31,515 nucleotides of DNA, from IMG/VR virus record IMGVR_UViG_3300021437_000064, positions 1 to 31,515 of that record; one strand, given 5' to 3'. This document shows positions 4,861 through 29,577 of the stretch, one piece after another. Under the pieces are notes generated by a model. That model was not told the origin of the DNA and did not search any database. It worked only from the letters and a program-made list of their open reading frames with translations. This DNA is from a virus. Numbering within the stretch: the first letter of the stretch is position 1; the number at the start of each line of letters is the position of its first letter. Position numbers and translations under genes: made by a program.

Positions 4861-5076
4861 TTAATTTGACCCTTCCCCGTCCCCAGACCCGTCCCCGTCC
4901 CCGTACCCAGCCCCGTCCCCAGACCCGTCCCCGGCCCCGTACCCAGAGCCAGACCCGGCCCCGTACCCGGACCCGTCCCCGTACCCGGACCCGGCCCCGT
5001 ACCCGGACCCGGCCCCGTACCCGTACCCGGCCCCGTACCCGGACCCGTCTATAAATGCTTTATTTTTTGAAGCCAT
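4861..5076 (-). CDS. Gly-X dipeptide repeat protein
   Basis: 71 residues: a 10-residue head (MASKNKAFID), then 30 uninterrupted Gly-X dipeptides with X drawn only from Ser, Tyr, Ala, Asp and Glu, ending in Asn. Tyr/Ala dominate the first half and Asp the second, giving an acidic C-terminal end. The frame is open because the DNA is a run of GGN-NNC-type hexanucleotides. It overlaps the DUF6948 gene by 17 bases and sits 9 bases before the Sak4-like gene, so it is positioned as a translated operon member. The function is unknown. Its low complexity and acidic, aromatic side chains suggest a disordered or condensate-forming peptide, or a DNA mimic; this is speculation. It might instead be a non-functional expanded tract. 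Confidence 0.6.
   Translation of the reverse strand: MASKNKAFIDGSGYGAGYGYGAGSGYGAGSGYGDGSGYGAGSGSGYGAGDGSGDGAGYGDGDGSGDGEGSN
4867..5046 (-). repeat. Hexanucleotide minisatellite (30 units) in coding DNA
   Basis: 180 bases made of thirty 6-base units. On the plus strand each is a variation on CCCGTA, CCCGGA, CCCGTC and CCCGGC, interspersed with CCCAGA-type units. The array is strikingly C-rich on one strand and lies wholly inside the Gly-X gene. Such arrays change length by replication slippage, and any change in multiples of six keeps the reading frame. Confidence 0.9.
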
Positions 5077-5437
5077 TTATTGAATCCTCAGCTGTTGAGC
5101 TGCATGGGATCAACTCACAAACACCTGTCAAATAAATCTCTGGGTTCACAACGTCAATCTTGCAACCAGACTGCACGCCAGTCTGAGCCACGCCGGACAG
5201 TGCAACTCCGTCTTTTGCTTTCCAAGACCACAATCGGCGAGAGTCTTTTAGGATTACGTTTTCGCCATCCACGCTAACCACCGTACCAGCATGTACACCA
5301 GCTGCATAGCAGCGTGCAATGACGTACTTACCTATGAATGGATGGGGTGTGTTGCATGGCGCAGGCTGTGCAATAGTTCCATTCACAAGAAAAGCAATCT
5401 CTCGGATTTGCTTCAAAGTCAGTTCTTCAATGTTCAT
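5060..5437 (-). CDS. DUF6948-like phage protein, first gene of the leftward operon
   Basis: 125 residues starting MNIEELTLKQIREIAFLVNG. A helical N-terminus is followed by a beta-rich domain: PFIGKYVIARCYAAGVHAGTVVSVDGENVILKDSRRLWSW begins at about residue 40, and KDGVALSGVAQTG follows. This matches the phage family known as DUF6948, of unknown function. The start at 5435-5437 has AAGGAAACACA upstream; an extended frame reaching 5524 would cross the promoter and lacks a ribosome site, so it was not used. It is the promoter-proximal gene of the leftward early operon, overlapping the Gly-X gene by 17 bases. Confidence 0.78.
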   Translation of the reverse strand: MNIEELTLKQIREIAFLVNGTIAQPAPCNTPHPFIGKYVIARCYAAGVHAGTVVSVDGENVILKDSRRLWSWKAKDGVALSGVAQTGVQSGCKIDVVNPEIYLTGVCELIPCSSTAEDSINGFKK

Positions 5438-5494
5438 TGTGTTTCCTTGGTTGTTTGCCAGACCTTCTGCAAATTCAGTTCGTCCGGTGAGGGT

Positions 5495-5524
5495 AGTGTA
5501 AGCGCATTTCGTGGCAAAATGCAA
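5495..5524 (-). promoter_or_regulatory. Leftward early promoter
   Basis: On the minus strand, TTGCAT (-35; plus 5519-5524) and TACACT (-10; plus 5495-5500) are separated by 18 bases, a good sigma-70-type match. It points into the DUF6948 gene and the whole leftward operon, with about 58 bases to the start codon. The assignment is from consensus by eye. Confidence 0.6.
5504..5522. promoter_or_regulatory. Candidate operator in the divergent control region
   Basis: The inverted repeat GCATTT (5504-5509) and AAATGC (5517-5522), with a 7-base centre, lies between the -35 and -10 of the leftward promoter, a classic site for repression. A second, wider inverted repeat, GTGTAAGC (5496-5503) and GCTTACAC (5552-5559), overlaps the -10 on one side and the first codons of the HTH gene on the other. 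The adjacent HTH protein is the obvious candidate ligand (inference). Confidence 0.45.
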
Positions 5525-5549
5525 ATGTTTTTACAAAAAGGAATAAAAA

Positions 5550-5738
5550 ATGCTTACACCTGAGCAGATACGGCAGAGACTCCATGACGCTAATCTTCGA
5601 AAAGTGGCCGATATGGCGGATGTGAAGTACGCCACCCTATGGCGCTTTATGAATGGCGCAAGCCCAAAATACCACACCATAATGGCTATCAGTGACTACC
5701 TGACACGGCGCGAATGCGGCGAGGTGGCCAATGGCTAG
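5550..5738 (+). CDS. Small HTH DNA-binding regulator (Cro-like position)
   Basis: 62 residues. The segment from NLRKVADMADVKYATLWRF through MNGA (about residues 15-37) has the spacing of a helix-turn-helix: a first helix around VADMADV, a turn, then recognition helix YATLWRFMNG. TIMAISDYLT then forms the following helix. It resembles very small Cro/XRE-type phage regulators. It is the first gene rightward of the divergent control region, has AAGGAAT upstream, and overlaps the primase-helicase gene by 8 bases. Its own first codons lie in an inverted repeat, hinting at autoregulation. It is probably the switch controlling early transcription in both directions; this is inference from position. 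Confidence 0.75.
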   Translation: MLTPEQIRQRLHDANLRKVADMADVKYATLWRFMNGASPKYHTIMAISDYLTRRECGEVANG

Positions 5739-7734
5739 CCTTATCAGCATCCTAGGAGGTGAGTGGACGCCCCCCAAAGAAAAGCACATTTCAAGCCCTG
5801 AAGATCAACTACGCACCGCCATGCTATCGGCGGGGATTGAGCCACCACCAGACATAGCGCTAGACGGGAAGTTGCACCGATTCAATGGTGATGCACGCAA
5901 AGATAAGAGCGCTTGGTATTGCATCTTCGGAGACGGCGTTCCGGCTGGACGTTTCGGGTGCTGGCGACAAGGTTTAGAGTCTTCATTCCGGGCTGACGTA
6001 GGGCGCAGCCTTACCGCCGCTGAGGAAATGGCGCACACCAGGCGCATGAGTGAGGCAAAGGCACTGCGAGATTCGGAGACCCAGCGAAAGTATGAGACAG
6101 CCGCCACCGTGGTAGAACAGATATGGTCAGGATGCACCGCAGCGAGTCCAGATCACCCATACCTTGCACGCAAAGGAATTAAGCCCCATGGTGCAAGGGT
6201 GACGGGCGATGGGCGCTTAGTAGTCCCCCTGTACGACTCAGACGGTGAAATGTGCAGCTTGCAGTACATCACCAACGACGGAACCAAGAGCTACCACCCC
6301 GGCGGCGCATCAGGTGGTAAATTTTGGCAAGTAGGATCATTTGACGAGCCTGGCGTAATGTACGTGGGTGAGGGCTTCGCCACCAGCGCCACCATTCACG
6401 AAGTATCAGGCAGGCCCTGCGTTGTGGCCTACAGCGCATCGAGCATTGTCGCGGTGATCGAGGCTTTGCGCGAGAAGTATGGTGCAGCACAGTCCATTGT
6501 GGTGGTCGCCGACCATGATGAAAACGGCATAGGCCAAAAGTACGCCGACCAGGCAAGCGCCAAATACGGCGTGCGGGTAGTGATGCCGCCAACACCAGGC
6601 CAAGACGCCAACGATTACGTGCAGGCTGGCGGCGACCTGGCCGCACTCCTGGCACCCCCAGCAACCGATTGGCTGGTCCCTGCGGACGAATTTTGCGCCC
6701 AGCCCGCACCAATCTCATGGGTGGTAAAGCATTGGATACAAGAAAAAGCCCTTGTAATGGTGCATGGCCCATCTGGCGGCGGTAAGACCTTCGTGGTGCT
6801 GGACTGGTGCCTTCGCGCATCCGCAGGCATCACAGAGTGGGCCGGGCACAAGGTAAAGCCCGGCTCAGTGGTCTACCTAGCCGGTGAGGGACACCATGGC
6901 CTGCGGGGCCGTGTGGCAGCTTGGAAGCACCACAATCAGGTGCTTAGGCTCAATATGTGGCTATCTCGCGATGGCTGCGACCTGAACACGCCATCGGGAT
7001 ATCTCCGGGCGCTTGAGAACATCAGGGCCTTGGACATTAAGCCCAGAGTGATAGTGGTGGACACCCTGCACCGATTCCTGAGTGGCGACGAGAACAGCGC
7101 CCAAGACGCCAAAACGATGCTAGACGCCTGCAACGCGCTCATGCAGGTGTTTGGCTGCACTGTAGTCCTTGTGCATCACACAGGCGTGTCAGAGGACTCC
7201 CAAGGCCGCGCACGTGGCTCCAGCGCATGGCGCGGTGCGCTGGACATAGAGATAAGCATTGTCCCCGCCAAAGGCGACCAGCCCATGCAAATAGTGCAGC
7301 GCAAATCAAAGGACGCCGAGCTTGCACAAACGGTTTACGTCGAATTACTTTCTGTGGATATTCCAAAATGGTTTGATGAAGACGGAAATTCAGTAAGCAG
7401 TGCAGTAATTATTCAAGCAGATACACCGCGTGCAGAATCTAAAGACAACAAAACACAAGAGGCTTTTAAAGTAATTGAGCGCGCTTGGTTTTCAGCAGCA
7501 TGCGAAACACGCAATGGATCACCATACATTAGCCGTAGCGCATTGCGTGATTTATTAATATCTGATGGAATGAATGAGCGCACCGCTAAAAACAAAACAG
7601 AACCATCACGTGAAGATGGTTTTATTTTCAAATTGATTAATGCAGATATTATTTCCACACACGAACATGGGTGGCTTGTGACTGACGAACTGCAGGCATC
7701 GCTCCTTCTCATGAGGACTCAAAAAAGCCCCTAG
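5731..7734 (+). CDS. Bifunctional TOPRIM primase / RecA-fold replicative helicase
   Basis: 667 residues. Residues about 40-90 hold a primase N-terminal region with H49, C64 and C77, but no clear zinc ribbon. The TOPRIM domain is shown by YVGEGFATSA (E214) and ADHDENG (D261, D263). The AAA_25/RepA-like ATPase follows: Walker A GPSGGGKTF at 346-354, Walker B VVDTLHR (D444), and sensor-like VHHTG at 481-485. It would synthesise primers and unwind phage DNA at the fork. The C-terminal about 140 residues look like a winged-helix (SRSALRDLLISDGMNERTAKN). From about 7.33 kb the DNA becomes visibly AT-rich, so the C-terminus may have been exchanged. Translation is coupled to the HTH gene by overlap. 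Confidence 0.9.
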   Translation: MASLISILGGEWTPPKEKHISSPEDQLRTAMLSAGIEPPPDIALDGKLHRFNGDARKDKSAWYCIFGDGVPAGRFGCWRQGLESSFRADVGRSLTAAEEMAHTRRMSEAKALRDSETQRKYETAATVVEQIWSGCTAASPDHPYLARKGIKPHGARVTGDGRLVVPLYDSDGEMCSLQYITNDGTKSYHPGGASGGKFWQVGSFDEPGVMYVGEGFATSATIHEVSGRPCVVAYSASSIVAVIEALREKYGAAQSIVVVADHDENGIGQKYADQASAKYGVRVVMPPTPGQDANDYVQAGGDLAALLAPPATDWLVPADEFCAQPAPISWVVKHWIQEKALVMVHGPSGGGKTFVVLDWCLRASAGITEWAGHKVKPGSVVYLAGEGHHGLRGRVAAWKHHNQVLRLNMWLSRDGCDLNTPSGYLRALENIRALDIKPRVIVVDTLHRFLSGDENSAQDAKTMLDACNALMQVFGCTVVLVHHTGVSEDSQGRARGSSAWRGALDIEISIVPAKGDQPMQIVQRKSKDAELAQTVYVELLSVDIPKWFDEDGNSVSSAVIIQADTPRAESKDNKTQEAFKVIERAWFSAACETRNGSPYISRSALRDLLISDGMNERTAKNKTEPSREDGFIFKLINADIISTHEHGWLVTDELQASLLLMRTQKSP

Positions 7735-17619: not shown

Positions 17620-18597
17620 ATGGCATCCCCCGGTCAATCCACCCTGTTTAACACCTTCACCGAACTGGTGAGTACCACGTATCGCAACCACAAAAAAGAA
17701 GTGGCCGATAACGTTTCCAATCACAACGCGCTGTACCGCCGCATCACCGACAAGGGCCGCATTCGCCTTGAGGATGGTGGCCTGTCCATCGTCACACCCA
17801 TGGACTACGCTGCAAACAGCACATACCAGCGCTACAGCGGCTTTGATGTTCTGAACGTCGGTGCTGTGGACGTGATCAGCGCTGCTGAATTCGCTTGGCG
17901 TCAAGTGGCCGTCAACGTTGCCGCTTCCGGCTTGGAAATCCGCACTAACAGCGGCTCCAATCGCATCATCAACTTTGTGAAGACAAAGCTGAAAAATGCA
18001 CAACGCTCGATGGCTAACGGCCTGTCTGGCGACCTGTACTCTGACGGCACCGCATCCAACCAGATGAACGGCATCCAGGCACTGGTGGCTGACCTTGGCA
18101 CCGGCACCGTCGGCGGCATCAACTCCGCCACTTTCCCATTCTGGCAAAACCAGGTGTTTGACGCATCCGATAACTCGGTGACCGTCAGCGCAGCGACCAT
18201 TGAAGCAGGCATGATGCTGCCCCTGTGGCTGCAGTGCACTCGCGGCAACGATACGCCTGACCTGATCGTCATGGATTCGAACTACTTCAGTTTCTATGAA
18301 GCCTCGCAATCGTCCCTGAAGCGCTATGCGCCCACCGACGAAGGCAAGGGCGGCATGATCAGCATGAAGTACAAGACCGCTGACGTGTTCTTTGACTCCA
18401 GCGCCTCGGGCATTCCGGCCAACCACATGTACTTCCTGAACACCGACTTCTTGGAGTTGGTGGTGCATCAAGATGCCAACATGGAAATCATGCCTGAGCT
18501 GCGCTCGGTGAACCAGGACGCACTGGTTATCCCCGTGCTGTTCCAAGGTAACTTGGTCTGCTCGAACCGCGCTCGTCAGGGCGTTGGTAAGGCTTAA
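17620..18597 (+). CDS. Major capsid protein
   Basis: 325 residues. The pattern TLFNTFTELVSTTYRNHKKE, SNHNALYRRITDKGRIRLED and YQRYSGFDVLNVGAVDVISA belongs to a podovirus major capsid type with an HK97-like fold (N-arm about 1-60, then P and A domains). It forms the icosahedral shell. GTASNQMNGIQALVADLGTG and RYAPTDEGKGGMISMKYKTA lie in the P and A domains, and the C-terminus ends LVCSNRARQGVGKA. The ribosome site is AGGAG, seven bases before the ATG. A stem-loop follows eleven bases after the stop. The position after scaffold and before a decoration-type protein is canonical. Confidence 0.9.
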   Translation: MASPGQSTLFNTFTELVSTTYRNHKKEVADNVSNHNALYRRITDKGRIRLEDGGLSIVTPMDYAANSTYQRYSGFDVLNVGAVDVISAAEFAWRQVAVNVAASGLEIRTNSGSNRIINFVKTKLKNAQRSMANGLSGDLYSDGTASNQMNGIQALVADLGTGTVGGINSATFPFWQNQVFDASDNSVTVSAATIEAGMMLPLWLQCTRGNDTPDLIVMDSNYFSFYEASQSSLKRYAPTDEGKGGMISMKYKTADVFFDSSASGIPANHMYFLNTDFLELVVHQDANMEIMPELRSVNQDALVIPVLFQGNLVCSNRARQGVGKA

Positions 18598-23497: not shown

Positions 23498-24862
23498 ATG
23501 GCAACTCCAATCATGGCCCCAGGCGCGTATGACGCGGAGTCTGAAGCCATCCGCCGCCGTCAGGCTTTTGCCGAAGCACTGAAAAACCCAACCGCACAGG
23601 GCGGGCGGATGGTTGGCAATCATTTTGTCCCCATGAATCCGATTGCAGGCCTGGCTGACTTGCTCCGCGCAAAGTGGGGCAAGGAGGAAAGTGCGGGCGC
23701 TACTCAAGACCAGCAAGCACTGGCTGACAAGATACGCAATCAGCGCACGTCTGACGTTAGTACATTCACCAAGATGCTGCAGCCTCAAGAGGCTATGCAG
23801 ATGCCAGAAGGACAACAAGGGCCAGTCCTAGGCGCACGTCCCGCAGATATCAATGGAGCGTATCAGTTCGCGTCCATGTCCAATACGCCAGAGCTACAGC
23901 AAGTAGGCATGCAGGGCGCATTGGAAAATGCCCAAAAGCAATCCCTGCTTGCACAGGCTTTGCAGCAACGCAAGTCTATGGCTGACCTGTGGCAATCCGC
24001 TGGCGGCAATGCACAGCAGTTCATGCAATCTGGTGGCGACCCTGCATTTGCCAAGCAAATGGCTGAAGCTCCATTGATGGGTAAGGAGAAGCTGCTGAAT
24101 GTGAACGGTCAATTGATGGGTGAACATACCGGCCAGGCTATGGGTGGCGTGGTTCCCAAGCAGTTTGACCAGCCGCAGGCGATAGCAGAATATGAATACG
24201 CCAAAAAGCAAGGATACGATAAGTCCTTGCAACAGTTCATCATTGACCAGAAACGTGCTGGCGCTGCGAACATGTCCGTTAGCGTCGCTGGCCCTGAGAA
24301 CAAGTTTAATCAGGATGTTGGCGCTGGATTGGCGAAGGATGCACTGTCAGCAGTTGATGCAGCAAAGGCGGCTCCTGAGCTTGTTACGAATGCACGCAGC
24401 ATCAAGGCGGCTATTGATAAAGGCGCTATCACTGGCACTGGTGCGAATGCACGACTGGCATTGCAAAAAGCACTTGAGACTGCTGGATTTGTGGGTTCCG
24501 GTAAAGCTGCAAGCACGCAAGAGCTTATGTCCGGACTTAGCAAGCTCACGCTTGGCGGGATCAAGTCCTCTGGCCTTGGTGGAGGAAATGGGTTTACAGA
24601 CAAGGACCGCGAATTCTTGAACTCCGCAATCGGTGGTCAGATCAGCGATACGCCAGAGAATTTGCGCCGAGTTGCGGACCTTTCAGAGCGCGTAGCCATG
24701 GCTACCCATAATAAGGGATCTAAGGTTCTGGAGCGTTGGAATCAGAATCCCGCACTGAAAAATGTCGCTCAGGATATGACTATTGACCCACTTCCTGTAC
24801 AGCAAGGAATGCCAGACCCATCAGCATTTGATGCTGAAATGAAACGCCGGGGGCTTAAGTAA
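23498..24862 (+). CDS. Internal virion/ejection-type protein 2
   Basis: 454 residues. It is largely helical with Gln/Ala-rich stretches (QSLLAQALQQRKSMADLWQS) and a C-terminal domain from about 270: AGPENKFNQDVGAGLAKDAL, ELVTNARSIKAAIDKGAITG, LASTQ-like ASTQELMSGLSKLTLGGI. This latter segment recurs in large phage internal proteins and may associate with membranes. The order (272 aa, 454 aa, 597 aa) mimics the three-gene ejection sets of podoviruses. Role by inference. Translation is coupled to the next gene by a one-base overlap (TAATG). Confidence 0.65.
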   Translation: MATPIMAPGAYDAESEAIRRRQAFAEALKNPTAQGGRMVGNHFVPMNPIAGLADLLRAKWGKEESAGATQDQQALADKIRNQRTSDVSTFTKMLQPQEAMQMPEGQQGPVLGARPADINGAYQFASMSNTPELQQVGMQGALENAQKQSLLAQALQQRKSMADLWQSAGGNAQQFMQSGGDPAFAKQMAEAPLMGKEKLLNVNGQLMGEHTGQAMGGVVPKQFDQPQAIAEYEYAKKQGYDKSLQQFIIDQKRAGAANMSVSVAGPENKFNQDVGAGLAKDALSAVDAAKAAPELVTNARSIKAAIDKGAITGTGANARLALQKALETAGFVGSGKAASTQELMSGLSKLTLGGIKSSGLGGGNGFTDKDREFLNSAIGGQISDTPENLRRVADLSERVAMATHNKGSKVLERWNQNPALKNVAQDMTIDPLPVQQGMPDPSAFDAEMKRRGLK

Positions 24863-26655
24863 TGGACTTGTCCAAACTCTCAGACGCTGATCTTGTAGCC
24901 CTGCATCGCGGTGATTTATCCAAAGTCTCTGATGCAGGGTTGCGCATGCTGCATGGCGCTTCTAATAAGGCCCCACAAGCAGCCAAAGCACAAGACCCTA
25001 CCGATGGCATGTCAATCTTTGAAAAGACGGCCGCAGGGGCTGGTAAGGCTTTGTATGACATTGGGCGTGGCGCAGGGCAAATGCTTGGACTTGTATCGCA
25101 GAAAGACATTGACCGGGCGCGTGAGCTTGATGCGCCACTTATGGCAACCGGCGCGGGCCAAGCCGGGAATATTGCAGGCAATGTGCTTGCAGGCATCCCA
25201 GCAGCTTTTGTGCCCGGTGCAAACGGAGTGGTCGGCGGTGCCATTACAGGCGCAGCACTGAGCGCTTTGCAGCCAACTGGAGAAGGCGAAAGCCGTCTGC
25301 AGAATATGGCACTTGGGGCCGCTGGAGGTGCCGCGCTCCCCGCTATTGTTGGCGGTCTTAAAACGGCCAAAGCGGCCATTTATGACCCGCTTGCAGGTCA
25401 AAACAAGATCATCGGAGGCGCTCTGAACCGTGCGGCTGGTGGAGATGCTGCGGCACTTGCACAAGCCCTTAAAGGCCAAGGAGCAGCCACACCAGGTGTT
25501 CGCCTATCTGCCGGTCAGACTGGCAGCAGTGAGGGATTGTCAGCCCTTGAGGACGCCATTACATCGGCATTGCCAAGCGGTGAGCTTGCACGCATGAGCC
25601 GTTCTAATCGTGCCGCATTGGCCGGCGCATTGCGTGGCATTGCCAAGTCTCCAGAGGATATGGCGGCTGCTAAGACCGCACGCAGCGCTGCGGCTGACAG
25701 CCTGTACAGCAATGCAAGGACCGAAGGCATAGACATGGCCGCACTCGCACCAGAGGCGCAGGCAAATATTGCTGCGTTCCAGCAGCGCATTCCAGAGGAT
25801 ATTCTGAACCGTGCCAAAGAGCTTGCAAAGATCAACGGCACCAGTATGGACAATGAATCTGCAGTGCAAGGAATGCATTGGGTAAAGAAAGCCATTGATA
25901 GCAAGATAGGCCAAGCCGTCACATCCGGTGATAAGGAAATGGCGCGTGCGTATCAAGGGCTGCAAGAGGACTTGCTAAAAGGCATGGGTGAGATTAGCCC
26001 ACTATATGATGCTGCCCGCACCACGCATGCGCAGATGAGCAAACCAATCAACCAGATGCAGGTAGGCCAGTCTCTTGCGCAAAAGCTGATACCTGCTACG
26101 GCTGGTGATATCCCTGAGTCGCTGAACTATGCAAGTCTCGCAACAGCCATGCGTAACCCCGACCGACTGGCACAGCAGGCCACAGGCTTTAGCGGTGCAA
26201 AAATGTCTGGCGTACTTTCACCGGAGCAGCTTGGCACTGTTCAGGGTGTTACGTCAGATGCAAGCAAGATTGCAGAGGCTTTGAAGCGCGGAATGGGTAC
26301 AAACTCCGCAACTCACCGCCGTACAGTGCAGGGTGAAATGCTGGCCCAGCACTTTGCTCAAGAGGCTCCAATCACGTCTAAGCTGCTTTCTTTGGCTGGA
26401 AACATACCAGGCGTAGGCATGGCTGGAAAAGGCATATCACTGGCCGCTGGTGTAGTTGGCGACAAAGTGCAGGCGCAAATGCTTGGAAAGTTGGACGACA
26501 TGCTTGCAAATAACCCGGCTCAGGTGGCAAAGCTTATCGAGGCTGAACTGTCAAGAGTGGCACCGTCGCAGCGCCAGCAGATTATCCGAGCACTTCCTAG
26601 TGCTGTATCTGCAGCGCTCCCGTCTGCGCTTATATCATCGAATTCGGCGCAGTAA
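24862..26655 (+). CDS. Internal virion/ejection-type protein 3, membrane-interacting candidate
   Basis: 597 residues starting MDLSKLSDADLVALHRGDLS, a short repeated LSDADL/VSDAGL segment. Residues about 55-175 are Gly/Ala-rich with amphipathic or hydrophobic character (GQAGNIAGNVLAGIPAAFVP; GVVGGAITGAALSALQ), like membrane-perforating ejection proteins. The remainder is a helical, Ala/Gln-rich body, with SLAGNIPGVGMAGKGISLAA near the C-terminus. It is a candidate for forming a channel in the host envelope during DNA entry. The 3' end overlaps an antisense micro-gene by 21 bases. Confidence 0.65.
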   Translation: MDLSKLSDADLVALHRGDLSKVSDAGLRMLHGASNKAPQAAKAQDPTDGMSIFEKTAAGAGKALYDIGRGAGQMLGLVSQKDIDRARELDAPLMATGAGQAGNIAGNVLAGIPAAFVPGANGVVGGAITGAALSALQPTGEGESRLQNMALGAAGGAALPAIVGGLKTAKAAIYDPLAGQNKIIGGALNRAAGGDAAALAQALKGQGAATPGVRLSAGQTGSSEGLSALEDAITSALPSGELARMSRSNRAALAGALRGIAKSPEDMAAAKTARSAAADSLYSNARTEGIDMAALAPEAQANIAAFQQRIPEDILNRAKELAKINGTSMDNESAVQGMHWVKKAIDSKIGQAVTSGDKEMARAYQGLQEDLLKGMGEISPLYDAARTTHAQMSKPINQMQVGQSLAQKLIPATAGDIPESLNYASLATAMRNPDRLAQQATGFSGAKMSGVLSPEQLGTVQGVTSDASKIAEALKRGMGTNSATHRRTVQGEMLAQHFAQEAPITSKLLSLAGNIPGVGMAGKGISLAAGVVGDKVQAQMLGKLDDMLANNPAQVAKLIEAELSRVAPSQRQQIIRALPSAVSAALPSALISSNSAQ

Positions 26656-26787
26656 AATGCGTTTGGTGCGGCCTTCAGGCATCCATCGAATAAATGCAAA
26701 CCGTACGCAAATTAGTGCTGCAAAAAGCGTGAATACTGCGAACGGCTTGATTAGAATTGCAATCAGCATTGATGTGTTTTCAGTCAT
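26635..26787 (-). CDS. Antisense 50-residue membrane protein
   Basis: The minus strand encodes a 50-residue protein (ATG at 26785-26787, TGA at 26635-26637). It starts MTENTSMLIAILIKPF, followed by one hydrophobic segment (AVFTLFAALICVRFAFI), the RWMPEGRTKR stretch and a basic end (ILLRRIR). The single membrane span with a positively charged cytoplasmic end is a typical small-membrane-protein design, and I recognise the K-P-F...RWMPEGxxKRxLLR pattern from small proteins in other phages. It overlaps the 3' end of the ejection gene by 21 bases and fills the otherwise empty gap before the tail fibre. Its ribosome site is weak. The function is unknown; superinfection exclusion is one guess. Confidence 0.6.
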   Translation of the reverse strand: MTENTSMLIAILIKPFAVFTLFAALICVRFAFIRWMPEGRTKRILLRRIR

Positions 26788-26805
26788 GCTTACAAAGGAT
26801 TAGAA

Positions 26806-28215
26806 ATGTCACGTAACGGTACTGGATCATACTCTCTGCCTGCTGGTAATCCAGTAACAACTGGCACCACCATTAGCTCCACATGGGCAAATAATACCCT
26901 ATCTGACATTGCAACGGCCTTGACTGGCTCAGTTTCGAAAGATGGGCAAACCACCATGACGGGCAATTTGCCTATGGGGGGATTCAAGGTAACAGGATTG
27001 GCCGCACCGACAGTTTCCGGGGATGCTTTGACCTACGGGGAAAATGCGTATGTTGCTAACCTTGATTTCTCCGGCACTGGCAGACGCATAACAGGCGACT
27101 TCTCGAATGCGACGCTTGCTAATCGGGTGCTGTTCCAGAGCAACGTAGTGAACGGCGCTACGTTCCTTGGCGTGCTTGCAAATGGAACATCTACAGATTC
27201 GGCTGTCTCTATTTACAACGCTAATAGCACTGTAAATAACAGTGCATTGACAATGTACGCAAATGGTTCGGATGTGCGCATCACATCAGACAAATCTGGC
27301 ACTGGTTCATACTTGCCAATAGCATTCCATTCTGGTGGCTCCGAGCGCTTCCGCATTGCCACTGACGGAACAGCTACATTCACTGGCAACGTCATTGCAC
27401 CGACTCAGGCAGCGGGTGATAACTCGACTAAGGTAGCTACTACTGCTTTTGTAGCAAACGCTGCACTTCAACTGCTGCCAATCTCTGCGTCAGTTGCAGC
27501 TAGCGCCCTGACAATTTCAGCATCTGCACTGTCTCTTGACTTCCGCTCTACCACACTTAGCAGCGGCACTGTAACTCGGGTTAGCGGGACGCCTGCAAGT
27601 CTAGTTGTTCCTTCAACTGCAACGCTTGGGACCATAAACGCAACACAGTCACGCCTTGTAGTCTTGGCTTTGAACAACGCGGGAACGATTGAACTTGCAG
27701 TAGTCAATATTGCTGGCGGTAATGACCTGACGGAAACAGGCCTGATTAGCACTACGGCAATCAGCGCAGCAGCTACGGCAAACAACGTTGTCTATTCAAC
27801 TACGGCACGCACCAACGTTGCTTACCGTGTCATTGGCTACGTGGAAAGCACGCAGGCTACAGCAGGCACATGGGCTACAGCACCAAGCACGATTCAAGGC
27901 GTTGGCGGCAATGCAGTGACGGCCATGAGTTCGCTGGGGTATGGGCAGACTTATCAAGTTGTAACGGGCGCTCGGTCTATCGGGACGACATATTTCAACA
28001 CCACCGGACGGACGATCTTTGCAGTTATTGCATTCAATAACAACACAGTGACGATAAACATGTCGGCCACCATCAATGGCGGAACCCCATTCACTATCGC
28101 CAGTTTGAGCGCGAATACGGTCAATGAAACGGCATTTTTGCCAATTCCACCCGGTGCGTCTTACCTCATCAGTGGCGCTGGGCCTGTGCTCCAGACCTGG
28201 GCCGAGCTTCGCTAA
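26806..28215 (+). CDS. Tail fibre protein
   Basis: 469 residues. The N-terminal 70 residues, including GTTISSTWANNTLSDIATAL and MTGNLPMGGFKVTGLAAPTV, are a typical phage tail-fibre anchoring start with the TMTGNL...G.KVTGLA motif. A middle repeat region (APTQAAGDNSTKVATTAFV) matches the recurring tail-fibre unit, and the rest is Thr/Ser/Asn/Gly-rich beta structure ending in a C-terminal receptor-binding or trimerisation domain (GASYLISGAGPVLQTWAELR). It would recognise the host surface. The rightmost gene before the assembly-type protein, which fits a fibre and its chaperone. The ribosome site is AAAGGATTAGAA. Confidence 0.85.
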   Translation: MSRNGTGSYSLPAGNPVTTGTTISSTWANNTLSDIATALTGSVSKDGQTTMTGNLPMGGFKVTGLAAPTVSGDALTYGENAYVANLDFSGTGRRITGDFSNATLANRVLFQSNVVNGATFLGVLANGTSTDSAVSIYNANSTVNNSALTMYANGSDVRITSDKSGTGSYLPIAFHSGGSERFRIATDGTATFTGNVIAPTQAAGDNSTKVATTAFVANAALQLLPISASVAASALTISASALSLDFRSTTLSSGTVTRVSGTPASLVVPSTATLGTINATQSRLVVLALNNAGTIELAVVNIAGGNDLTETGLISTTAISAAATANNVVYSTTARTNVAYRVIGYVESTQATAGTWATAPSTIQGVGGNAVTAMSSLGYGQTYQVVTGARSIGTTYFNTTGRTIFAVIAFNNNTVTINMSATINGGTPFTIASLSANTVNETAFLPIPPGASYLISGAGPVLQTWAELR

Positions 28216-28224
28216 GGAAAAATC

Positions 28225-28548
28225 ATGCATTACAAAGACCAATTCAACGCTCTGTATTTTTTGGACGATGCGGCCCATGAGCACCTGCTGCCAGCGGGCT
28301 GCGTGCAGATCACAGAGATGGAAGCAGAAGCCCTTAAGCCGGTTCACACGCCAACAGTTGCCGAAAAACTCGCAGCACTAGACGCAGCCAATGCGCTCAC
28401 CCAGCGCAATCTGCGCGAGACCGTTATGCTTATGGCTGAAGCTTTCAAGCAAATCACAGGAGGTGCTGTGAACCTTTCATTAATACCCGGTGTGGCAAAG
28501 GTTTACGAAGTCGAAGCACAGGCCGCAATCCTGCGAGGGCAGCTATGA
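28225..28548 (+). CDS. Tail-fibre assembly/accessory protein
   Basis: 107 residues. The N-terminus MHYKDQFNALYFLDDAAHEH and LLPAGCVQITEMEAEALKP, then ALTQRNLRETVMLMAEAFKQ, resemble small proteins encoded right after tail fibres. The N-terminal part matches the XXXYFLD...LPxGCVxIT pattern of fibre-assembly proteins. It probably helps fold or attach the fibre. The start has AAGGAAAAATC upstream and the stop overlaps the following gene by four bases (ATGA). Confidence 0.7.
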   Translation: MHYKDQFNALYFLDDAAHEHLLPAGCVQITEMEAEALKPVHTPTVAEKLAALDAANALTQRNLRETVMLMAEAFKQITGGAVNLSLIPGVAKVYEVEAQAAILRGQL

Positions 28549-28844
28549 TCTTCCTGCTGTGCCTATTGCTTAAGCCTGCGCTGCTGTGCGTGAGCGACCC
28601 GAGCCGGTATTGGTATCTCGCACCTATTGCTGTCCTTGCCTGGCTGCTTGATATTTTTATCACGCACACGACTTGGCCCCTGATTGCCGGGTTCCCACGC
28701 ATCGGTGAGGTAACTATCAGCGACACGCTGGAGCGGCTTTGCCTTGATCACGGGAACCCTGACCGTGAGTTATTTGTAGCTATCGCAAAGAAGATCAACC
28801 GCATCGACCCTCTACACGCACACATAAAGGCTGTACTCGCATGA
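28545..28844 (+). CDS. Small membrane protein of the lysis region
   Basis: 99 residues. Two hydrophobic segments, about 1-16 (MIFLLCLLLKPALLCV) and 23-40 (WYLAPIAVLAWLLDIFIT), are followed by a soluble, charged part with IGEVTISDTLERLCLDHGNP. I recognise the TISDTLERLC part from phage proteins in this position, but no function is known; a role in holin regulation is possible but unsupported. It is coupled by ATGA overlap to the flanking genes. Confidence 0.65.
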   Translation: MIFLLCLLLKPALLCVSDPSRYWYLAPIAVLAWLLDIFITHTTWPLIAGFPRIGEVTISDTLERLCLDHGNPDRELFVAIAKKINRIDPLHAHIKAVLA

Positions 28845-29152
28845 GCGAATTCCAACCATCCCAATACACCCGCCGTGAGTCGGATCAAAACCCGCCAATA
28901 GAGTCTTGGCACTTGGATAAAAAAGTACCCATTGCCTTGATCTTCGCAATGCTCACACAATTCGCTGCTGTGATCTGGTTTTTCGCAGATATAAAGCGCG
29001 ACGTTGAGCTACTGAAAGCTGATGCGGTGGTCCTGCACCAGCGTGACGTTCAAAATTCCGATGGGCTGAAGGATGCGCTAAAGCAAATGCAGGATCTGTA
29101 TCAGCGCCTGGACTCTAAGCTGGACCGGCTGATTGAAAGGGGCCAGAAATGA
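28841..29152 (+). CDS. Single-span membrane protein with coiled coil, lysis cassette
   Basis: 103 residues. A basic N-terminus (YTRRESDQ) is followed by one membrane span, about residues 30-47 (IALIFAMLTQFAAVIWFF), then a charged helical region with a predicted coiled coil (DALKQMQDLYQRLDSKLDRL). It is a candidate holin or antiholin because it directly precedes the lysozyme, but single-span proteins of this type also serve as lysis accessory factors. Overlaps the lysozyme gene by four bases (ATGA). Confidence 0.6.
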   Translation: MSEFQPSQYTRRESDQNPPIESWHLDKKVPIALIFAMLTQFAAVIWFFADIKRDVELLKADAVVLHQRDVQNSDGLKDALKQMQDLYQRLDSKLDRLIERGQK

Positions 29153-29577
29153 ATGAAGCAGGGCTAAATCTCATTCGCAATTTTGAGGGGTGTGTACTCG
29201 ATGCTTACCCGGACCCAGGCACTGGCGCATCACCTTGGACCATCGGCTACGGGTGCACTTTCGGCGTGAAGAAGGGCGACAAGATCACACGAGACATGGC
29301 AAATGTCATGCTCATGCGCGACGTGGAGCACTTTGAAAAATGCGTGAAGGAACTGCTTACCGTTGACGTTACACCAAATCAATTGGCGGCAATGATTGCG
29401 CTTGCCTACAACATCGGTATGGCCAATTTTGGATCGTCTACGCTGCTGCGCATGGTCAATGCAAAAGACCCAAAAGCAAGCGAACAGCTCCTTCGGTGGA
29501 ATCGCGCAGCGGGCAAGGTGATGGATGGACTCACACGGCGCAGGGCTGCAGAAAAAGCACTCTTCGATACACCATGA
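29149..29577 (+). CDS. GH24 phage lysozyme (endolysin)
   Basis: 142 residues. The catalytic region FEGCVLDAYPDPGTG, followed by ASPWTIGYGCTFG, has E13, D22 and T31 in the E-D-T arrangement of T4/P22-type muramidases. LAYNIGMANFGSSTLLRM and LTRRRAAEKALF are standard later motifs. The enzyme cleaves the glycan strands of peptidoglycan. There is no signal sequence or SAR domain, so release needs a holin made by a neighbouring gene. The length is typical for a compact GH24 lysozyme. The ribosome site is AAAGGGGCC before the ATG, and the stop overlaps the secreted-nuclease start (ATGA). Confidence 0.92.
   Translation: MNEAGLNLIRNFEGCVLDAYPDPGTGASPWTIGYGCTFGVKKGDKITRDMANVMLMRDVEHFEKCVKELLTVDVTPNQLAAMIALAYNIGMANFGSSTLLRMVNAKDPKASEQLLRWNRAAGKVMDGLTRRRAAEKALFDTP

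Follow-up and report, generated by a model that had tools for sequence, protein, structure and literature searches.

A conserved antisense membrane microprotein gene between the putative ejection and tail-fibre genes of podoviruses: a tentative candidate for superinfection exclusion

Is a short frame that runs against the late genes of a podovirus a gene, and what could its product do between the proteins that recognise the host and those that deliver the DNA? The question is raised by the window, the whole stretch of 31,515 nucleotides of IMG/VR record IMGVR_UViG_3300021437_000064, in which a frame starts with an ATG at 26787 on the minus strand, continues for 50 codons and ends with a stop at 26635-26637. 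The features of this region are as follows:

24862..26655, plus strand: putative ejection (internal/DNA-transfer) protein gene, 597 aa; named from gene order and relatives
26635..26787 (stop included), minus strand: microprotein gene, 50-aa membrane protein (MTENTSMLIAILIKPFAVFTLFAALICVRFAFIRWMPEGRTKRILLRRIR); ORF, conserved family and AlphaFold2 model
26788..26805, strandless: shared leader, 18 bases from ATG to ATG, with an AAGGA Shine-Dalgarno for the fibre gene on the plus strand
26806..28215, plus strand: putative tail-fibre/receptor-binding protein gene, 469 aa; name inferred from position

Results

The gene and its neighbours

The microprotein and fibre genes are divergent across the shared leader, and the 3' end of the ejection gene overlaps the microprotein gene by 21 bases. 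These coordinates agree with the sequence-only reading, which had reported an unbroken 50-codon minus-strand frame with a 21-base overlap with a large gene. It had also described the surroundings as otherwise only rightward genes, which is correct for about 5.5-31 kb but not for the left 5 kb, where leftward replication and recombination genes are located. We infer that the neighbours are the last ejection protein and the tail fibre, based on the gene order of the window (terminase, portal, major head protein, tail protein, amidase, and virion structural protein, with a lysozyme and a spanin-like protein later) and on annotated relatives: Xanthomonas phage PBR31 carries a putative internal protein C and then a tail spike at the equivalent place, and the relative of the ejection protein in DSL-LC05 is annotated as a putative DNA transfer protein. 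The PHROG matches of the ejection and fibre proteins, phrog_5880 and phrog_18834 (both with E 2e-11), are families of unknown function.

Recovery and conservation of the family

The window microprotein matched phage PBR31 by tblastn with 40% identity and an E-value of 0.07; the PBR31 copy is antisense between the internal protein C and the tail spike, with no annotated feature beneath it. We fetched 14 IMG/VR loci (L003-L016) via relatives of the window ejection protein; at the junction, 12 of these (L003-L011 and L013-L015) contain a related antisense frame, L012 contains none, and L016 contains a different one-span antisense frame. The frame is also carried by Podoviridae ctfPj964 (MW202557, the sequence of which is repeated in MW202655) and by Rhodoferax phage P26218, where it occupies 17751-17909 on the strand opposing the late genes, and it is unannotated in all three named carriers. 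A ten-member profile searched against 19,328 six-frame segments matched 88 of them at E<0.01, including 46 distinct ones, and remained stable on iteration (88 segments at E<0.001), while a 40-member profile over all 178 sequences (32,070 segments) gave 66 distinct domain sequences, which come from the IMG/VR relatives and the three named phages. One distinct segment (L081) possesses no ATG and was dropped, leaving 45 of the 46 for the analyses of the plus frame, leader, Shine-Dalgarno sites, and promoters; L002, L068, and L040 were additionally left out of the 42-row alignment.

Most members are about 45-60 aa in length, and the relatives are conserved at the amino-acid level. The proposed translated search of related phages at the same place thus recovered a family in which both the frame and its hydrophobic segment are kept, and the suggestion of a real, overlooked membrane microprotein is upheld by the conservation of the frame at the same place. 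The family, which we call K/R-P-F after its best-conserved residues, gave no match at E 1 among PDB sequences and no reliable match in PHROGs (best E 0.0045, to a PHROG matched by 2 of the 40 profile members), NCBIfam (best E 0.006, 1/40), or PADLOC (best E 0.016, 1/40). The best Pfam match of the window protein, to PF03376 (Adeno_E3B; E 0.002, 1/40), reaches 18.7 bits, below the 25-bit cut-off, and was rejected as a composition effect. Our search of the open-access PMC literature found no publication describing these microproteins, which apparently constitute an unannotated family. In GTDB genomes, a first prophage scan (A2) found none, and a second (A4) found a single weak ejection-protein relative; the MAG that carries it has no member of the microprotein family. 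On the IMG/VR contig IMGVR_UViG_2919627008_000001, a family member occurs together with an integrase; the form of the name leads us to guess that this is possibly an isolate genome, and if so, it could provide a culturable temperate carrier.

Which strand codes

In nine ungapped sequences of the P26218 group, the minus frame contains no stop and shows a pN/pS of 0.29, a value that by itself fits either strand, as the third positions of the plus and minus frames coincide. The differences at minus codon positions 1, 2, and 3 are 0.147, 0.037, and 0.209 per codon pair, respectively, and the minus frame is under purifying selection. In 30 of the 45 members, one plus-strand frame across the gap is likewise open, and the depositors of MW202557 annotated it there as a 44-aa hypothetical protein (UOF78610.1, 5715-5849). 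Both observations speak for the view that there is no protein gene on the minus strand, only an antisense RNA, a by-product of a small plus-strand gene, or a chance frame. However, random synonymous recoding of the minus proteins leaves the plus frame open in 31.3 +- 2.1 of 45 members; hence, no selection is needed to explain its openness, which follows from the amino acids encoded on the minus strand. The slowest codon position, minus position 2, corresponds to plus position 1, which is the wrong pattern for a plus-strand gene, and the membrane protein itself is encoded by the plus strand in two relatives. Recoding and codon-position rates together rule out a small plus-strand gene in this gap, and UOF78610.1 was very probably called in error, the conserved frame being that of the minus strand over the same bases. 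We regard a non-coding origin as scarcely credible, and the frame at 26635-26787 is a real, coding gene. Gene callers can pick the wrong strand in such gaps.

The protein

Residues 8-26 of the window microprotein are hydrophobic, with a mean Kyte-Doolittle value of 2.46, and are followed by a basic C-terminus, which matches the one membrane span and basic tail proposed initially. Column 18 of the alignment is Lys or Arg in 42 of the 42 members, followed by Pro in 41 and Phe in 38; this K/R-P-F motif is situated inside the single N-terminal membrane helix, whereas Lys47 (38/42) and Leu50 (41/42) belong to the basic tail. The mean net charge flanking the hydrophobic core is -0.31 on the N side versus +5.98 on the C side, and the N side is the less positive in 42 of the 42 members. 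According to the positive-inside rule, an N-out/C-in topology is predicted, and the protein would probably be located in the inner membrane. The AlphaFold2 model contains a helix at residues 3-35 and a short helix at residues 40-45, with a mean pLDDT of 79.4 and a pTM of 0.43.

Placement beside the ejection gene

The fetched stretch contains an ejection gene for 64 of the 66 family sequences and contains none for the other two. The microprotein abuts the 3' end of the ejection gene in 64/64, a count biased by the many loci that were fetched through that gene; 62 copies are antisense and two are sense. Among 24 loci inspected from context-blind scans with the microprotein, 22 have an antisense and one a sense copy beside the ejection gene, and for one the fetched stretch contains no ejection gene. 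The sense copies (L088 and L154) lie on the plus strand between the ejection and fibre genes. In L088, the ATG of the microprotein overlaps the ejection stop (ATGA) and its own stop overlaps the fibre ATG (TAATG), forming a tightly packed co-directional gene. Since these two relatives are sense, the antisense placement is not obligatory.

We also surveyed the junction from the ejection side. From 80 loci, 63 distinct junctions were kept after removal of near-identical or incomplete ones; 37 carry an antisense K/R-P-F gene, one a sense copy, five another one-span antisense gene, and 20 none. By a fixed criterion (within 200 nt after the gene, an antisense ORF of 28-130 aa that contains a membrane-like segment), 37 of the 63 junctions are positive, compared with 68/1591 random windows and 18/326 gene ends elsewhere in these loci. 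An antisense membrane ORF at the junction is more than chance. In 37 of 39 genomes kept for the comparison, the identity of the microprotein tracks that of the ejection protein (rho 0.44) more closely than that of the fibre N-terminus (rho 0.27), both values being confounded by shared descent.

A second type of one-span microprotein, with a GPLFWLGxNxLE motif and a basic tail, lies antisense beside the ejection gene in six loci (L091, L095, L098, L174, L175, and L176), and may be either unrelated to the K/R-P-F type or too diverged for detection. A second sequence type at the same junction is what a swappable exclusion locus leads one to expect. Three loci (L090, L104, and L122) carry another type of small antisense membrane frame at this junction, with the pattern D..L.K....V....F..G. 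Acidovorax phage AP1 has four leftward genes of an unrelated kind at 4879-6059, shortly past its relative of the PBR31 internal protein C and ahead of a structural gene, so that there, too, this region serves as an insertion spot; by profile, the K/R-P-F family shows no kinship with them.

Expression and phage life style

A gene opposite the late operon had been expected to need its own promoter. The window copy does not show one: 0 promoter and 0 terminator sites were found on the minus strand, the promoter score reaches a z of 0.40 against shuffles, and any minus promoter would have to fall inside the fibre coding sequence. The minus strand of the window also possesses no Shine-Dalgarno site for the microprotein. 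Promoter and Shine-Dalgarno tests across the family used 33 of the 45 members as non-redundant representatives. Their upstream promoter scores exceed those of shuffles slightly, by a mean z of 0.70 (standard error 0.22), and L040, L071, and L102 contain the strongest sites; a higher significance came from a weaker control, and we rely on the shuffle-based z instead. Shine-Dalgarno sites at -4 kcal/mol or better precede 12 of the 33 representatives versus 147 of 900 control ATGs, a difference that is not significant in a rank test (p 0.22), and good sites are absent from the window and the P26218 group. An intrinsic-terminator-like hairpin is present on the plus strand at the microprotein start, before the fibre gene, in five of the 45 members (L002, L064, L068, L079, and L108), where late transcription may stop ahead of the fibre gene and the latter may form a separate transcription unit.

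An integrase (PF00589) was found in 9 of 28 records searched, 8 of them over the cut-off and PBR31 among them. None was found in the window, in its close relatives L005, L007, L010, and L013 (36-38 kb), or in P26218, with the reservation that fragments cannot prove absence. In its published description, P26218 is called virulent, and none of its 44 predicted genes is reported to encode a transmembrane helix (PMC4657236). A role in the lysogen or the infected cell had been suggested; a lysogen-only role is unlikely because this virulent phage and the integrase-less nearest near-complete relatives of the window carry the gene.

Discussion

What might the microprotein do? The position and orientation of sieA in P22, which are equivalent to those of the microprotein gene, make superinfection exclusion our best guess at a function. 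Once made in the infected cell, the microprotein would insert in the inner membrane and, when related phages arrive, hinder their ejection-protein conduit from assembling or functioning, so that their DNA would be kept out; the most likely target, to judge from the placement, is the product of the adjacent ejection gene. We counted in its favour the pN/pS of 0.29, the K/R-P-F conservation, the 64/64 placement, the P22 precedent, the second type at the junction, and the rho of 0.44 versus 0.27, and against it the lack of any SieA profile relation, the window copy without promoter or Shine-Dalgarno site, and the 20 of 63 junctions scoring nothing. On this balance, we tentatively propose that the microprotein acts against the adjacent injection machinery as a minimal SieA-like factor for exclusion or immunity, in lytic as well as temperate podoviruses, and give this slightly less than an even chance.

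The linkage to the ejection gene would fit equally well if the microprotein shielded the producing cell from its own new membrane-active ejection proteins, preventing a premature conduit or leak until lysis. The two sense copies, inside an apparent late operon, would be expected to be expressed late and would be co-made with the ejection protein, which suits such self-protection better and early exclusion less well. The 20 junctions without such a gene by the criteria used argue against self-protection, which we judge rather unlikely. Many phage microproteins inhibit host inner-membrane functions, and a single span with a basic tail, found in two orientations, is in keeping with an inhibitor of a host protease, transporter, or division function, for which the fibre side of the junction would merely tolerate insertions. 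However, context-blind scans find the family at no other place, which a purely permissive site would not predict, and such host take-over seems improbable to us. For an ejection-accessory or virion protein carried into the next host, the neighbouring ejection genes would be a natural setting, but 62 of 64 copies are antisense and lie outside the late transcript there; we consider this very unlikely.

The short N-terminal helix and basic tail also recall a holin, pinholin, or antiholin, and one member matches a holin PHROG at E 0.41, which is chance level. The microprotein gene runs antisense and precedes the fibre gene, whereas the rightward lysis cassette of the window, with its lysozyme gene at 29149-29577 on the plus strand, has membrane-protein candidates of its own at 28545-28844 and 28841-29152; a role in lysis control accordingly has little to recommend it. 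The latter two candidates, situated just before the lysozyme gene, bear no family name and are likely a holin or accessory protein. To return to exclusion, a conserved family at the place of SieA in P22 provides a testable candidate for exclusion of sibling phages by virulent podoviruses, and the microprotein could potentially serve as a very small probe of the trans-membrane DNA conduit.

Comparison with known systems

Like a moron, the K/R-P-F gene is a small addition flanked by conserved structural genes and occurs in both orientations. Morons usually bring a promoter and a terminator, whereas the K/R-P-F family is without a clear promoter and the only terminators seen (5/45) act on the plus strand. 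T4 Imm is a small membrane protein, and its gene is located at a place different from the ejection/fibre junction. In the lytic phage T4, Imm is described as a product that keeps superinfecting phage from injecting their DNA (PMC11436027), as we propose for the microprotein.

The closest parallel in placement is P22, where gene 16 (plus strand) is followed, 22 bases past its end, by the start of sieA (minus strand), which has its own annotated promoter, and then by the tailspike gene 9 (plus strand). According to PMC10883804, SieA is an inner-membrane protein that blocks the ejection conduit, escape mutations map to gp16 and gp20, and the sieA-like genes, of three types (A, B, and C) that are <30% identical, lie between homologues of genes 16 and 9 in every case examined in detail. 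Both systems place a membrane protein gene opposite the late genes (usually, in the K/R-P-F family), between the last ejection gene and the tailspike or fibre gene, and both show several diverged types at one place (for SieA, PMC10883804). In contrast, SieA is 162-164 aa long, is predicted to span the membrane three times, and carries FxRYPxEAxxFNK as a cytoplasmic motif (PMC10883804), compared with 50 aa and one helix for the window protein, and the K/R-P-F family also occurs in phages without an integrase. The 40-member profile gave no match to P22 SieA, and the motif is absent from the 42-row alignment. As size, topology, and sequence differ, the microprotein is not a member of the SieA family at all. 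Homology to P22 orf59a was likewise rejected by profile, and the only match in the P22 region (E 0.0014), an antisense frame of different character over gtrB, thousands of bases from sieA, was attributed to chance.

A broader reading, which we find possible and on the whole doubtful, is that the ejection/fibre junction is a general anti-injection immunity locus of podoviruses, with P22 SieA as its large temperate version. If this were true, each phage, temperate or virulent, would encode a single-span microprotein there, usually on the strand opposite its own injection gene and belonging to one of several types unrelated in sequence (K/R-P-F, GPLFWLGxNxLE, and perhaps D..L.K), and the inner membrane of the infected cell would become refractory to the phage's own class of ejection conduit.
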